From the IMG/VR virus record IMGVR_UViG_3300015199_000007, positions 1 to 39,294 of that record: 39,294 bases of DNA; one strand, written 5' to 3'. This DNA comes from a virus. The position numbers and the translations under genes are program-made. The notes below the pieces were generated by a model. That model saw only the letters and a program-made list of their open reading frames with translations, was not told the origin of the DNA and made no database searches. The stretch's first letter is position 1. Each line of letters begins with the position of its first letter. Positions 3,402 to 28,568 of this stretch are shown in pieces.

Positions 3402-4745
3402 ATGAGGAACCCTTTTAGGGCTGAGCGGAAGTCTGCGCCGTCACTGTTTGACGATGCGTTTTGGGAGGCGATCGAGCACGCATCGGGCGCGGGTCGCGGT
3501 GGTATGACGTTGGAGCGCGCCGTGGGCGTGCCCGCGATTCTCGCGGTAATCCGGTTACTGTCGCACGCGCTCGGGATGGTGGAGTTCCGTGTCGTGCGTG
3601 GGCAGCCGGGCGGTGTGATGGAGAACGCAACGGATTCGTGGCAATGGCGGTTGCTAAACCGCCGGCCGGGCGTGGCGCCGATGACGCCGTTCACGATGAA
3701 GGCGGACATTGCGGCGAATTATGCGGGGCGCGGTGACGCTTACTTGCGGAAGATCAAGCCGGCGTACCGCGAATCGGGGAGGCCGGGCATCCTCGAGTTC
3801 GTCGGAGTTGACGCGGCATATGTGGTTCCGCGGCGCGGCGAGGACGGAAACGTTCGGTACACGCTGGCTGACGGCGTTTACGGCAACGGCACGGATCTGA
3901 CGCCCGACGACCTGTTACAAGTGCGGTCGTTCTCGACAGGCGGTCCCGTCAACGAGTTCCGTGGCGTGTCGCCGATCACATCAGCTCGGCTGATGATTTC
4001 GGCGGGGCATCGCCGCATGGAGTTCGAGGAGGCGCATCTCAAAAATGGGATCTTTCCGGGGATGGCGCTTGAATATCCGACCGGCGTAACCGAGGATCAG
4101 GCGAAGCAATGGGTTTCGTTCCTTGAGGGGAAGATGCGTGGCGCCCGGAAGGCTGGCAAGATCGCGGCCGTGGGAGGCGGGGCCAAATTGGTCCCTATGC
4201 CAATCTCGCTCGCGGACGCACTGTTCGCGGAAATGACGCATCTAACGCTGGAACAGGCAGCGGCGATGTGGAATATCCCGCCCGCGTTCGTAATGATTAC
4301 GCGGCAGCAACCATCGGACTCGGATGTGCGGCTTTTGACGACGTTCGGCGTAGCGCCGATGGCGATTGCGTTCGCGGAAGCGCTGAACGCTGACGTTGAC
4401 ATGTTCGGGCCTGATGAGCAGGACTTGCTAGTGGTTCCCGATTTCACGCGGCTGATGACTGTCGATCCGCTCGTGTTGGCGCAGGTACAGCATCAGCAGG
4501 TTCAGTCGGGCGTGCGCGTGCCAGACGAGTTGCGTGCCAAGGATGGGCTAGCACCGCTTCCGCCGCTCGCTGCTGACTGGCAGAAGACACCGGGCATGGT
4601 GCCGCAGATCACTCCTGTGGGCGGCGCACCAAACCCGGCGTTTGCGTCGGGCACGATCCCGGCGGGGCGCGCGGCACCGGGTGTTACGGCAACCGTAACG
4701 GCGGGCGGCAATGAATCGGATCATGCGACTGGCGAGGGGAACTAA
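3402..4745 (+). CDS. Portal protein (HK97 family)
   Basis: The 447-aa protein starts at 3402, eleven bases after the large terminase, behind AAGGAGG. It has features of HK97-type portals: an N-terminal region with repeated contacts (AVGVPAILAVIRLLSHALGMVEF), the stretch VNEFRGVSPITSARLMI, and the conserved helix region AAAMWNIPPAFVMI near residue 290. It forms the dodecameric ring at one capsid vertex through which DNA enters and leaves. The last 40 residues are proline/alanine rich and probably disordered. Confidence 0.93.
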   Translation: MRNPFRAERKSAPSLFDDAFWEAIEHASGAGRGGMTLERAVGVPAILAVIRLLSHALGMVEFRVVRGQPGGVMENATDSWQWRLLNRRPGVAPMTPFTMKADIAANYAGRGDAYLRKIKPAYRESGRPGILEFVGVDAAYVVPRRGEDGNVRYTLADGVYGNGTDLTPDDLLQVRSFSTGGPVNEFRGVSPITSARLMISAGHRRMEFEEAHLKNGIFPGMALEYPTGVTEDQAKQWVSFLEGKMRGARKAGKIAAVGGGAKLVPMPISLADALFAEMTHLTLEQAAAMWNIPPAFVMITRQQPSDSDVRLLTTFGVAPMAIAFAEALNADVDMFGPDEQDLLVVPDFTRLMTVDPLVLAQVQHQQVQSGVRVPDELRAKDGLAPLPPLAADWQKTPGMVPQITPVGGAPNPAFASGTIPAGRAAPGVTATVTAGGNESDHATGEGN

Positions 4746-6819: not shown

Positions 6820-7230
6820 ATGAACTTCGGTCAACGTCTTACCCTCATTCCGACAGTTTCCCTGGTCCCGGATCAGTACACGGCGGCCGGTAACGGCTCG
6901 GGCGTGGACACGAAGGGCGCCGAGGCCGCGATGATTTCGGTCATCACCGGCGCATTCGGTGGCACGGCTCCGACCGCATCGTTCAAGGTGCAGGAGTCGA
7001 ACGATAACGCGACGTTCACGGACGTTGCGGACTCGGATCTCGTGGGCGCCACGGGTAACACGAGCGGCGTCGCGCTGGCGGCTTCATCCGCTGTGCGCAT
7101 CGACTACATCGGTCTGCAGCGGTATGTGCGGGTCGCCATTTCGGCGGTCACTGGTACGACTCCGGTGATCCGTCTGGGCGGAAACGTGCTCCTGGCGCAC
7201 CTGCGTCACGCGGGCCCGCAGCCCGTCTAG
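6820..7230 (+). CDS. Probable capsid-associated beta-rich protein (136 aa)
   Basis: The 136-aa protein starts at ATG 6820 behind GGAAAGGG. It is small-residue rich and looks all-beta (SFKVQESNDNATFTDV, VRIDYIGLQRYVRVAI), resembling single-domain beta-sandwich virion proteins. Its place between capsid and head-tail connector is where decoration or head-stabilising proteins are often encoded. That role is inferred from position; no specific family was recognised. Confidence 0.55.
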   Translation: MNFGQRLTLIPTVSLVPDQYTAAGNGSGVDTKGAEAAMISVITGAFGGTAPTASFKVQESNDNATFTDVADSDLVGATGNTSGVALAASSAVRIDYIGLQRYVRVAISAVTGTTPVIRLGGNVLLAHLRHAGPQPV

Positions 7231-7236
7231 CAGGAT

Positions 7237-7307
7237 GGACGGCAAGGCATCGGCAGAAGATGCCCGATGGTTTGGCTTGGGCCGGGGTTCGATTCCCCGG
7301 CCGTCCC
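7237..7307 (+). ncRNA. tRNA-like element with intact acceptor and T arms
   Basis: A 7-bp acceptor-like stem pairs 7237-7243 (GGACGGC) with 7300-7306 (GCCGTCC). Next to it is a perfect T arm: stem CGGGG 7283-7287 with CCCCG 7295-7299, loop TTCGATT. A D-arm-like hairpin pairs GGCA 7246-7249 with TGCC 7261-7264, or a longer 6-bp version with a 7-base loop. Only 18 bases separate the D and T arms and no normal 5-bp anticodon stem forms. An alternative 6-bp stem, 7262-7267 with 7277-7282, leaves a 9-base loop. No CCA is encoded. It is either a degenerate tRNA or a tRNA mimic in the structural-gene transcript. Confidence 0.5.
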
Positions 7308-7341
7308 ATCAGTTGCACACTTCGACACCTTAGGAGGGCAC

Positions 7342-8538
7342 ATGGCCGACGATACCGCCTATTCGGGCGCTGTCTATTATTCGTTCATCAGCGGCGCCCC
7401 GACTGGCGCCGTGGGCCGGATCATGTTCGCGCTGAAGTGGCCGAACGGGGATGTCGCGGTCGCAGCCACGGCGGCGGGCATCGTCGAAACGGCGCCCGGT
7501 TCGTACGTGGCGACACAGATCGCGCCGAGGGTTTCGGCTCCAACCGCGTATGTCCGCGTGTGGGCGGACCCAGACTTTCCGAGCCTGTCGGCCACGGAGG
7601 CGCTTACTGTGCTGCCTGTCGCGTCGGCGGGCATCGACGCCGGTGCGCGCGCGTTGCGCCGGCAAGCACGGAGCAAGGCGCGGGCGGTTACGCGCGTCGG
7701 CGCGGTACTGTCGATCGTGTACGGGCAAGATGCGGATGCCATACCGTCCGGCGCCGTCACTGTTCTCGTCGTGAATGCGGCCGGCGTCGCCGTGTTCACG
7801 GGCACCGCGACGCAGGTTGGCAGCTCAGCGCAGTACACGATCCCGCTGCCGTCCGCATCCCTGTCGTTTGTGGACGATTTCGCCGTTGTGTGGACTGCCG
7901 TCGTCGGGTCGGATACGCGCACGGATGTGACCGCGCTGGATGTGTGCTCGGCTCGCCTGTTCACTGTGGCGCAGATGCGCGCGCAGCGGGACGTGACGAA
8001 CGCGCAAACCGATGCGCAGATCGAGTTGGCGCGGGTTGCGGCCGAAGATTTCATTGAGGCGGCATGTGGTCGGGCATTCGTGCTGCGGTACTTTGAGGGC
8101 GTCCGCAATCAGGTCGAATGGTTCCGTCACGCGGGGCTGCGACTGGAGCACCCTGACGTCCAAACGTTGCGGGCGCTAAGCATTGGCGGTGTGCCAGTGA
8201 CAGTCGCGCCTAACCCGCTGCCGGCGGCGACTATCCCGCCGACACGGTACCTGTCGGATTTCAACGTGGGCGACTTCGGGTTCCTGTACGGGCCGGACAA
8301 GGTGACGCGCGTAAACGTGGATGTCGCTTATGAGCATGGCGAGTTCGCGGCGGGCGCATCCCGCGCGGCGCTGATCCTCGCACGGCACTTCCTGATCTCC
8401 GGGCCAATCGACGACCGGGCGACGGGGCTCCCGGTCGAAGGAGGGGGCGTCATTTCGCTGCTGACTCCGGGCGTGAAGGGCTCCCTGACGGGGCTCCCAG
8501 AGGTTGACGCTTTCATCGCCGCGAACGTGGCCGCCTGA
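7342..8538 (+). CDS. Head-tail connector fused to N-terminal beta domains
   Basis: The 398-aa protein uses the ATG at 7342 behind AGGAGG (7332-7337); an upstream in-frame start would fall inside the tRNA-like element. The C-terminal half, from about residue 205 (FTVAQMRAQRDVTNAQTDAQIELARVAAEDFIEAACG), matches the helical adaptor proteins (HK97 gp6-like) that bind the portal. The first 200 residues look like two immunoglobulin-like beta domains (GVAVFTGTATQV, GTYEVA-type strands). Typical adaptors are only 100-200 aa, so this is an extended form. It joins the head to the tail completion proteins encoded next. Confidence 0.7.
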   Translation: MADDTAYSGAVYYSFISGAPTGAVGRIMFALKWPNGDVAVAATAAGIVETAPGSYVATQIAPRVSAPTAYVRVWADPDFPSLSATEALTVLPVASAGIDAGARALRRQARSKARAVTRVGAVLSIVYGQDADAIPSGAVTVLVVNAAGVAVFTGTATQVGSSAQYTIPLPSASLSFVDDFAVVWTAVVGSDTRTDVTALDVCSARLFTVAQMRAQRDVTNAQTDAQIELARVAAEDFIEAACGRAFVLRYFEGVRNQVEWFRHAGLRLEHPDVQTLRALSIGGVPVTVAPNPLPAATIPPTRYLSDFNVGDFGFLYGPDKVTRVNVDVAYEHGEFAAGASRAALILARHFLISGPIDDRATGLPVEGGGVISLLTPGVKGSLTGLPEVDAFIAANVAA

Positions 8539-25047: not shown

Positions 25048-25218
25048 GAGTGCGATGCCGCGGAACGCGAATGGTGGTTGCGGGTGAGCGTGGTACGGGG
25101 ACCGGACCGTCCGGCCGCGGCGGCGCGTTACGAGACATTGCGCGCCGCACAGATTGCGCGAGCCCACACGAACTGCGGGACGGATGCGTGCTGCGGCGGA
25201 TGCGGGACGGCGACATGA
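25039..25218 (+). CDS. Hypothetical small protein with Cys cluster (59 aa)
   Basis: Start ATG 25039 overlaps the mini-ORF stop; the stop (25216-25218) overlaps the next start. The C-terminus NCGTDACCGGCGTAT has four clustered cysteines that could bind a metal. The middle is arginine/alanine helical. No family recognised. Confidence 0.5.
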   Translation: MTRECDAAEREWWLRVSVVRGPDRPAAAARYETLRAAQIARAHTNCGTDACCGGCGTAT

Positions 25219-25445
25219 GCGCGCCGCCGAGAGACGGCACACGGGCGGCAGTTCGCTTCTGGGCGCAACGCACGCGCGAGTCCCTAAGGCGTGCGGTGGA
25301 CTTGGCGTTAGCGGCCGTCGCATGTGCGGACGAGTTCTACGGGGCCATTCGGGCGTGCGCCGCCCGCGCGGGGATCGACATGCCATGTGCGGTCGCGGTC
25401 ATCGACATCCGCGGCTACCCGCGGGAGCGGCAGCCCGTACTATGA
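25215..25445 (+). CDS. Hypothetical protein (76 aa)
   Basis: The start overlaps the previous stop and the end overlaps the integrase start by ATGA. The product is helical (VRFWAQRTRESLRRAVDLALAAVACADEF). It is immediately upstream of and coupled to the integrase, so a recombination directionality role is possible but unsupported. Confidence 0.45.
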   Translation: MSAPPRDGTRAAVRFWAQRTRESLRRAVDLALAAVACADEFYGAIRACAARAGIDMPCAVAVIDIRGYPRERQPVL

Positions 25446-26707
25446 GCGCGTTCCGCAAATCCAAGACTCCGGGCGTAAGCGTCCGGCACCAGATCGGATG
25501 CCCTGCGGCCGACCAGGACGGGCCACGATGCCGCTGTAAGCCCGCCTACCGCTCGCAAAAGTGGGGCGTAGGATTCTCGCCATCCTTCCCAACCATCGCC
25601 GCCGCGCAGTCGTGGAAGGCGTCCGCGGTCAAGGGTGAGCGGACGCGCGCCGAACGCGCGTCACGCGGTATCACGTTCGGCGCGCTGGCGTTGCAATGGT
25701 GGGAGGGTGTCGAGGCGGGCTCGATCGGCAAGCGCAAGGGGCGCAAGGACGTGCCCTACACAGCCACGACGCTGGCCGGCTACCGGCGGACTGTTGCCTA
25801 CACGCTCGCGCCGCGCGCATGGTTCCTGGCGGGCAATGGCTCGGTCATGCGGGCCGTCATCGCGGCATCCTCGCACGAGCACGAACCGGCGGCGTCGCTC
25901 GGCCCGGAGCACTGGCAAGCATGGGTCGATGACCTTGCGGCGGGCGGCCTGTCACGATCCCGTATCGCCAATCATCTTGCGGTCGTGTCCGCCATCTATG
26001 GCTGGGCATCACGGGCGACCCGGAAGATCGTCCCGTCGAACCCGACAGTGAGCGTGGAAATGCCGCCAAACGACGAAGTGCGGCGCGAGCGCGTGGCGAC
26101 CGCCGACCATGCCGCAGCACTCCTGGCCGCGCTCGGTGAAGCGGACCGCGTGCCGTACGCCATCGCGTTCTATGCGGGGTTGCGTCGCGGTGAGATCGCG
26201 CGACTGACGTGGGCTGACGTTGATTTCGAGAACATGCGACTGACTGTGCGCGTGGCGAAGTCGGAGGCGGGCACGGGCCGGCAACCGCCGATCGCCGCGC
26301 CGCTCGTGGAGATCCTGCGGGCATGGGATGGCGACGGCGCCGTGTCGTGGCGTCTGCGCGCCGAGGATGGGCAGCTCGTGCCCGTCTCGCCCGTGTCGGT
26401 CATGTCCGGCAAGCTCGCCGCCCGCGCGTCGTCTGCGTGGCTCGCTGCTGGGCTGAAGCCGATCGGGCTTCACGAATGCAGGCACACGTACGCTAGCCTT
26501 CTCGTGGCAGCCGGATACAACCTAAAGGAGATCATGTCCTATTTGGGACATGCCGATCTGACCACGACGAGCCGCTACGTCAAGCTGCTGCCGCAGCCGG
26601 GCGAGGCCTCAGCAGCGGACAGGCTAAACGCCTATCTGGGGGCGCCGGATATCCGACGCGAGCCCGTCTGCGCTGAGCGGTCCCGCGCGGATCATGGCGA
26701 CGCATAG
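25442..26707 (+). CDS. int: Tyrosine integrase
   Basis: The 421-aa tyrosine recombinase has the catalytic residues in order: R248 (AGLRRGE), H344 and R347 (HECRH), H370 (YLGHAD) and nucleophile Y379 (TSRYVKL). The N-terminal part includes an arm-binding-like segment with a Cys/His cluster (IGCPAADQDGPRCRCKPAY), then a core-binding SAM-like domain (about 77-195). The attP lies 139 bp downstream. It integrates the phage by recombination between attP and the 3' half of a host tRNA gene. Transcription probably comes from 24466, which has a repressor operator. Confidence 0.93.
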   Translation: MSAFRKSKTPGVSVRHQIGCPAADQDGPRCRCKPAYRSQKWGVGFSPSFPTIAAAQSWKASAVKGERTRAERASRGITFGALALQWWEGVEAGSIGKRKGRKDVPYTATTLAGYRRTVAYTLAPRAWFLAGNGSVMRAVIAASSHEHEPAASLGPEHWQAWVDDLAAGGLSRSRIANHLAVVSAIYGWASRATRKIVPSNPTVSVEMPPNDEVRRERVATADHAAALLAALGEADRVPYAIAFYAGLRRGEIARLTWADVDFENMRLTVRVAKSEAGTGRQPPIAAPLVEILRAWDGDGAVSWRLRAEDGQLVPVSPVSVMSGKLAARASSAWLAAGLKPIGLHECRHTYASLLVAAGYNLKEIMSYLGHADLTTTSRYVKLLPQPGEASAADRLNAYLGAPDIRREPVCAERSRADHGDA

Positions 26708-26845: not shown

Positions 26846-26886
26846 TGCCGGAGGAGGGACTCGAACCCCCGACACGCGGATTATGA
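26846..26886 (-). other. attP core: 3' half of a tRNA-Met(CAT) gene
   Basis: On the minus strand these 41 bases read TCATAA (anticodon loop with CAT), TCCGC (anticodon stem), GTGTC (variable loop), a T arm GGGGG-TTCGAGT-CCCTC, the acceptor strand CTCCGGC and discriminator A. The 5' half of a tRNA is absent. This is what a phage attP carries when it integrates into a tRNA gene and restores its 3' end. No CCA follows. The host tRNA would have GCCGGAG as its 5' acceptor strand. Confidence 0.85.
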
Positions 26887-26901
26887 TTGCGCTAGTCGCA
26901 A
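26887..26901. promoter_or_regulatory. Operator-like site in attP
   Basis: TTGCGCTAGTCGCAA starts on the base after the tRNA identity block. If bound by the repressor it would touch the integrase core region directly. Confidence 0.5.
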
Positions 26902-28259: not shown

Positions 28260-28299
28260 TGCCCGAATCTGGGTCACGGTTCGATTCCGTGCGGGCGAC
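28260..28299 (+). ncRNA. tRNA-like minihelix in a 5' leader
   Basis: A perfect T arm (stem CACGG 28275-28279 with CCGTG 28287-28291, loop TTCGATT) is stacked on an acceptor-like stem: TGCCCG 28260-28265 with CGGGCG 28292-28297, including one U-G pair. D and anticodon arms are absent; nine bases (28266-28274) take their place. It lies at the predicted 5' end of the mRNA for the 28338 gene. Confidence 0.45.
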
Positions 28300-28337: not shown

Positions 28338-28568
28338 ATGGCCACTGTCTCCCACATCGCCGCCGCAGACCTTCACCAGAACGACACGCTAATTATCGAC
28401 GCGTCGCTCGTCATCGTCGACGAAGCTGGCTACGACGACGATGACGACAACATATGGCTGCACGTGACCTGCATATCCGGCAACTTCGACCAGTTCGACC
28501 AGCCGATATGGGCCGCGCCAGACGCTACCTTCCGGGTGCTCGACGCTGAGCCGCGGCGCACGCGATGA
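28338..28568 (+). CDS. Hypothetical acidic protein (76 aa)
   Basis: ATG 28338 follows AGAGGA. The product is strongly acidic and beta-rich (NDTLIIDASLVIVDEAGYDDDDDNIWLHVTCISG), like a small OB- or SH3-type fold. It is the first gene of a long operon of small genes from the 28224 promoter. It overlaps the next gene by ATGA. Confidence 0.55.
   Translation: MATVSHIAAADLHQNDTLIIDASLVIVDEAGYDDDDDNIWLHVTCISGNFDQFDQPIWAAPDATFRVLDAEPRRTR

Follow-up and report, generated by a model that had tools for sequence, protein, structure and literature searches.

What is a tRNA-like element doing between two genes of a phage late operon? The stretch analysed here, the whole 39,294 nucleotides of the IMG/VR virus record IMGVR_UViG_3300015199_000007 (hereafter the window), belongs to a temperate phage with HK97-type head genes and an integrase. 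It holds such an element, E1, in a place that a preliminary description had called odd for a tRNA: upstream is the gene of a 136-aa protein, which follows the major capsid gene, and downstream is a head-tail adaptor gene. E1 is a real structured element and not a tRNA gene. Our preferred reading, with a probability of about 0.58, is that E1 is a tRNA-like punctuation element of a phage intergenic class, at which host RNase P would cut and thereby split a polycistronic mRNA. The class, its covarying stems, its rule of position and strand and the fit of E1 to it were observed directly, and from them we infer the cleavage.

Two foldings of E1, which share one T arm, have to be considered:

7237-7306, plus strand: E1 in the long-insert reading, with a 7-bp acceptor, GG at 7246-7247, a hairpin at 7248-7253/7264-7269 and the T arm at 7283-7299; acceptor and T stem form a 12-bp stack.
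7266-7305, plus strand: E1 in the short-linker reading, a 40-nt minihelix with the acceptor GATGG/CCGTC (one G-U pair), the 11-nt linker TTTGGCTTGGG with GG at positions 4-5, the T stem CCGGGG/CCCCGG and the loop TTCGATT.
7282-7300, plus strand: the T arm common to both readings, extendable to an 8-bp hairpin at 7280-7287/7295-7302.

The outer stem of the long form consists of seven Watson-Crick pairs (7237-7243/7300-7306, GGACGGC/GCCGTCC) and its T arm of five (7283-7287/7295-7299, CGGGG-TTCGATT-CCCCG, with TTCGATT as the loop), and 39 nt separate the 5' strand of the acceptor from the T arm. The earlier claim of a tRNA-like element with an intact acceptor and T arm at 7237-7307 is therefore confirmed, and E1 shows the 7-bp acceptor and 5-bp T arm with TTCRANY that are expected of a canonical tRNA. 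Between these parts, the long fold runs from the acceptor through AAGG and the hairpin CATCGG/CCGATG to the T arm. In the short form, 7266-7270 pair with 7301-7305 and the T stem has 6 bp; the two closings overlap, so that the short closing and the 7-bp acceptor are mutually exclusive.

Such a structure is rare by chance. The window contains a single T arm that has a 7-bp acceptor at 30-60 nt, and the same geometry was found in 0 of 300 first-order Markov windows with Watson-Crick pairs only (9 in 300 when G-U pairs were allowed). Given the T arm, the chance of the outer 7-bp stem is 0.012 and that of the inner stem with its GG 0.0012. The 71-nt E1 RNA folds with -40.3 kcal/mol (z = -3.59), none of 200 shuffles being equally stable, and the energy favours the outer fold with the 7-bp acceptor over the short reading.

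The middle of a tRNA is missing. No canonical anticodon arm fits E1, which bears out the abnormal arm noted at the outset, and no cloverleaf with a usable anticodon can be drawn. ARAGORN, which had been suggested as a check, found no tRNA at E1 in its default run and forced a tRNA-Thr(ggt) with a 2-nt 'intron' there in its pseudogene-plus-intron mode alone. In Rfam, E1 did not reach the tRNA cut-off, and the nearest sub-threshold families were mascRNA-menRNA (22.7 bits, cut-off 42.5) and tRNA-Sec (19.8 bits, cut-off 47).

A blastn search of E1 against phages led to matches in un-annotated gaps of Streptomyces phages, where a 40-nt element repeats the short form: an acceptor of 5 bp, an 11-nt linker with GG at positions 4-5, a T stem of 6 bp, the loop TTCGAGT and then ACT. 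The general plan of the class is an acceptor and a T arm stacked over 11-12 bp, a short linker with GG and a TTCRANY loop, with neither D nor anticodon arm. In phages of Streptomyces, Mycobacterium and Gordonia the number of copies is about 6-13 per phage. The complete records of the Streptomyces phages Yosif and Sitrop have approximately eight each, as has the larger part of the Mycobacterium phage Konstantine record, and all of these lie on the gene strand. Further carriers are Candle, Fowlmouth, Cafasso, Zemlya and phiScoe3, and the copies in Cafasso lie on both strands, each following the local gene direction. The class also reaches Halorubrum virus HRTV-14, with two copies on the gene strand, one of which was found by blastn in HF1, HF2 and their relatives as well. 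In Sitrop (L350), the deposited tRNA-Arg at 41493-41575 covers a class minihelix at 41495-41534 on the minus strand and is probably a miscall.

A descriptor of the short-linker form gave 67 hits in eight loci of Streptomyces, Mycobacterium and Gordonia phages, 265 kb in all; one hit, which coincides with an annotated tRNA-Gln of L354, was later dropped. By comparison, shuffling one 50-kb phage locus 150 times produced 5 hits, and the 1.14 Mb from relatives of the window phage produced none. A pattern scan of viral contigs yielded at least 119 loci, of which 91, among the matches listed, contain descriptor hits, 296 in all once ARAGORN tRNAs are taken out, with up to 12 per locus; three shuffles of this set gave one hit. 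The ratio of 91 to 119 is no measure of prevalence, as the source pattern forced GG-N6-CC in at least one copy and 119 is a lower bound. Rfam 15 found only a real tRNA and GOLLD RNA in eight class loci and has no family for the class; a permissive search of three loci likewise gave no match for the class copies. The GOLLD RNA (185.9 bits) stands at 15228-15687 of L352 (Mycobacterium phage Candle), in the 1.1-kb interval that separates genes 66 and 67, where the record has no annotation for it.

Several variants of the plan were also seen. The human-gut phage contig MT837734 (L348) has the same architecture at 493-537, GGGAGT-14 nt-CCGGGG-TTCGATT-CCCCGG-ACTCCC-CCC. Eight loci (L373, L393, L415, L424, L430, L441, L442 and L447) carry a near-identical single element, GGCTAGT-16 nt-CAGGG-TTCGAGT-CCCTG-GCTAGTC with the tail ATT, and may represent a phage group of their own, each member having one copy. 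Forms that, like the long reading of E1, have GG and a hairpin in a long insert number 7 in 132 class-bearing loci, 0 in one shuffle of the loci and 1 in 150 window shuffles. By eye, a T arm with a matching acceptor and a hairpin-bearing insert of at least 30 nt behind GG is seen at L354 6912 and 11080, L427 811 and L468 3215, copies that resemble tRNAs with a variable arm and without an anticodon arm; those at L354 11080 and L468 3215 were also found by the descriptor. A further 39 T arms in class-bearing loci fit neither form, some looking like degenerate or long-insert copies and some coding.

That the class is a selected RNA fold is indicated by its pattern of change. The alignment of 54 copies has an invariant GG in the linker and an invariant G-T-T-C-(R)-A-n-n-C around the loop, letters that we take to be the counterparts of tRNA G18, G19, G53, T54, T55, C56, A58 and C61. 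Covariation reached 0.742 in the 54 copies and 0.829 in 37 diverse copies, compared with 0.152 and 0.170 after shuffling, and 10 of the 11 pairs have changed on both sides among the aligned copies. A motif made from the unpaired bases only had 47 matches in the eight loci, all 47 with all 11 pairs, formed by 14 acceptor and 20 T-stem sequences; in two control sets it matched 3 and 2 times, never with 10 or more pairs. Selection on RNA folding best explains the 47 of 47, which would be hard to account for otherwise. The preliminary description had named a want of compensatory changes in relatives as what would count against the element: among close relatives, the element is in 0 of 193 loci, while at the level of the class the stems covary strongly.

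The flanks, whose letters the descriptor did not select, are uniform as well. Among the matches listed, 241 distinct elements were compared, counting only distinct cores, as many viral loci duplicate known phages, and leaving out the annotated tRNA-Gln hit. Position +1 is G in 214 and position -1 is A in 179, N73 is a purine in 213 and N74 is C in 211; the stack has 11 bp in 182 and 12 bp in 48.

Placement follows a rule. In six annotated loci, all 52 copies lie on the strand of both neighbouring genes, and three share more than 12 nt with an annotated coding sequence. The median distance is 9.5 nt from the upstream stop (quartiles 7 and 20) and 45 nt to the downstream start (quartiles 39 and 50). 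Seen from the gaps, 43 of the 56 same-strand ones of 60-200 nt in the annotated loci hold a copy.

E1 fits this class in both readings. The model R2, built on 37 diverse copies with the window excluded, has its best hit in the window at 7266-7308, over its full length, with 26.7 bits (E = 5e-4; next hit 14.6 bits), a score that is significant only because the window is short. The model R1, built on 54 mostly Streptomyces copies, gave a partial hit of 22.2 bits on E1 (E = 0.008). Stacks of 5+6 bp in the short and 7+5 bp in the long form, with the TTCRANY loop, agree with the class, as does the linker GG at position 4 or 3, respectively. The descriptor has two hits in the window, E1 and a second candidate, E2, compared with 4 in 200 shuffled windows; the Poisson chance of two or more is near 2 in 10,000.

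28260-28297, plus strand: E2, a candidate minihelix with the acceptor TGCCCG/CGGGCG, the 9-nt linker AATCTGGGT, the T arm CACGG-TTCGATT-CCGTG and the tail ACC.
28338-28568, plus strand: an open reading frame of 76 codons with no family, 40 nt downstream of E2.

Both elements are intergenic and on the sense strand, the next start following 35-36 nt after E1 and 40 nt after E2, and E2 has in its ACC the purine-C tail of the class. The sequence model fits the short reading of E1 better and the long form is more stable. Exact-pattern scans of viral contigs for E1 with its own acceptor letters found none, so that there is no homolog to decide between the readings, both of which are forms of the class.

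How such an element might work follows from the parts that it keeps. It retains only the upper half of a tRNA, with the acceptor helix stacked on the T arm, and its linker GG can dock on the T loop in the manner of G18-G19 in the elbow of a tRNA. Within a polycistronic transcript, the element would fold into a minimal pre-tRNA shape, and host RNase P would cut at its 5' side, possibly joined by RNase Z behind N73. The features kept by the class, namely the acceptor/T-stem stack, T loop, elbow GG and G at +1, are those that RNase P reads. The enzyme measures the acceptor/T stack from the elbow (PMC4919913) and cleaves model hairpins of acceptor, T stem and T loop, the M3 and C4 RNAs and some mRNAs (PMC11143913, PMC10731613). 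We therefore read the class as processing marks, because the kept parts are those read by RNase P, the acceptors vary and the copies stand behind stop codons. The earlier proposal of an RNase P signal splitting the late mRNA is thus supported in kind, in that E1 resembles a phage minihelix class with these features, and its cleavage is retained as an inferred step.

A cut so soon after a stop codon would release the preceding message intact, and the message that follows would begin with a stable minihelix as its folded 5' end. At the locus in question, E1 would divide the late transcript downstream of the capsid genes, at a gap that strong hairpins occupy in two relatives, and the capsid-side and head-tail-adaptor messages would become separate RNAs with different stability. 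The genes concerned, and the site that is the better candidate for phage attachment (attP), are as follows:

6820-7230, plus strand: the gene of a 136-aa protein (phrog_5707), directly after the major capsid gene; its stop lies 6 nt before E1 in the long reading.
7342-8538, plus strand: the head-tail adaptor gene (phrog_442), with AGGAGG before the ATG at 7342, 35-36 nt after E1.
26847-26895, minus strand: the 3' half of a tRNA with anticodon CAT, adjoining the integrase gene (25154-26707); likely the attP core and not a class member.

Several observations weigh against cleavage at E1, or against its place in the class. The 54 and 37 aligned rows were picked by a descriptor that demands pairing, and their '100% paired' is thus true by construction; likewise, the unpaired letters of the motif were learnt from the same phages on which it was run. 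The R2 score of E1 has to be read with the warning that the same model gives 29.6 bits to a hit inside a reading frame of G046 (L358/L360), which we take as chance, and sequence models see only the T arm of E2, which rests on the descriptor. E1 lacks the purine-C tail (C-C-A in the short form, C-A-T in the long one), a tail that is common and not universal in the class. The 40-mer of the short reading contains a G-U pair and, taken alone, prefers the 8-bp hairpin. In the long form, GAT of the leader could form base pairs with the ATC that follows the acceptor, and a paired leader and tail have been described as an anti-determinant (PMC10731613). The class stack is mostly 11 and not 12 bp and position -1 is mostly A, whereas the RNase P of E. 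coli and B. subtilis prefers U there (PMC10731613). E1 lies in the late operon, and the copies inspected in annotated phages lie outside the structural operon. Finally, a T arm with a full acceptor, in the short or long form and on either strand, was present in none of the 193 loci related to the window phage.

Those 193 loci (1.14 Mb), which carry relatives of the capsid or 136-aa gene or adjoin them, came from searches with the major capsid protein, the 136-aa gene and their alignments and from a search of the host order for the major capsid protein, with the surrounding prophage stretches. ARAGORN listed no tRNA in them. The adaptor-gene search added no related loci, and blastn searches of phages with 25 kb and with 1.7 kb of the window gave no match. 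The host order is probably Solirubrobacterales, judging by the attP core. A prophage of that order has a major capsid protein 56% identical to that of the window phage. At least 119 genome stretches contain the 36-base core; because most of them belong to Solirubrobacterales and Gemmatimonadota and some to other groups, the host is probable and not proven. A prophage-like locus in this order has two class copies, one with the same 19-nt T arm as E1 and one directly behind a stop codon, beside an anti-restriction protein, a DNA methyltransferase and a weak match to a terminase small subunit; it is the only genome with a hit at E <= 0.001 among 399 drawn from the host class.

In the gap homologous to that of E1, the Solirubrobacterales prophage L170 has a long GC hairpin (6910-7000) and L002 a hairpin followed by TTTTT (3455-3500). 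Close relatives thus place a strong structure at this gap, but another structure. The unrelated hairpins, one of them with its T run, favour the view that E1 is no more than a structured spacer, in which a strong hairpin would stabilise or terminate the upstream mRNA and resemble a T loop by chance; E1 itself can also fold into a simple hairpin of 8 bp (-19.5 kcal/mol). We nevertheless regard such a spacer as unlikely, as no T run follows E1, a terminator scan omits it and the combination of T loop, T stem, acceptor and GG is rare by chance.

Slightly less probable again is a tRNA mimic that remains uncut and serves as a decoy or translation element for another partner, such as the CCA-adding enzyme, EF-Tu, a synthetase, the ribosome or a host anti-phage tRNA nuclease. 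Several tRNA-binding partners read the same top-half features (elbow readers, PMC4919913), and the tight distance of 45 nt to the start codons would also suit a role in translation. However, 14 kinds of acceptor in 47 matches leave no single amino-acid identity, and such free variation speaks against a synthetase; the position right behind stop codons, moreover, suits cutting. The mimic of the preliminary description survives in kind, in that E1 resembles the intergenic tRNA-like minihelices of phages.

A decayed tRNA gene or the remnant of a tRNA attachment site, which the preliminary description had also offered, is improbable. The T arm and acceptor are generic to tRNAs, and the window does hold a tRNA 3' half at a likely attP; that copy, however, lies elsewhere, beside the integrase, and for this reason E1 was rejected as attP. 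The 232 genomes of the probable host order match E1 only in short, T-arm-sized pieces, decay does not explain two intact stems, and the truncated form recurs in other phages as a maintained structure. A repeat acting at the DNA level, as a repressor or stoperator site that is palindromic by coincidence, can practically be set aside: like the 13-bp stoperators of cluster A phages (PMC3029335) the class is multi-copy, intergenic and in one orientation to transcription, but its conserved letters are the unpaired ones and its stem letters change in compensating pairs, whereas stoperators are asymmetric 13-base sites with a consensus sequence (PMC3029335).

Processing by RNase P, the reading preferred here, has each of its ingredients in known systems: RNase P model hairpins, phage RNase P substrates and tRNA punctuation. 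The M3 RNA of phi80 and the C4 antisense RNA of P1 and P7 are non-tRNA phage RNAs that serve as substrates of host RNase P (PMC10731613, PMC11143913), as we propose for the class. Model substrates of the AT1 type have the acceptor/T-stem stack and T loop and no anticodon arm (PMC11143913). Those substrates are synthetic, whereas the class is natural, repeated between phage genes and provided with a GG linker. M3 and C4 are presumably single RNAs, unlike the multi-copy intergenic class. The mascRNA/menRNA family (RF01684) shares the acceptor, T arm and reduced middle and is the Rfam family nearest to E1, with a weak score for E2 (16.6 bits); E1 falls below its cut-off, it comes from eukaryotic long non-coding RNAs and class copies do not match it. 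In mitochondrial polycistronic transcripts, tRNAs between genes mark the cuts of RNase P and RNase Z; these are real tRNAs, whereas the phage elements are 40-nt shells unable to decode. In the hisCD operon mRNA of E. coli, RNase P acts on a hairpin of a polycistronic mRNA, which is proposed to stabilise part of it (PMC10731613). There it is one site in one operon, in contrast to a series of T-loop elements.

No description of natural, multi-copy, anticodon-less tRNA shells between viral genes was found in Rfam 15 or the open literature, an absence that counts for little as most subscription journals were outside the scope. A wider generalisation, that tailed viruses of bacteria and haloarchaea share an RNA system with tRNA shells, lacking D and anticodon arms, as general cutting marks between genes, by which the host enzymes of tRNA maturation would make many single-gene messages out of one long transcript, is put forward tentatively, at somewhat less than even odds. 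If our reading of the class is right, a structured RNA class has been overlooked in laboratory phages, namely phiHau3 (Streptomyces), Konstantine and Candle (Mycobacterium) and the haloviruses HF1 and HF2, as it is rejected by tRNA finders and lacks a family in Rfam 15. The class would supply many natural minimal substrates of RNase P and account for one type of conserved spacing between the small genes of phages, and viruses would be using the tRNA-maturation machinery for genome-wide mRNA processing.
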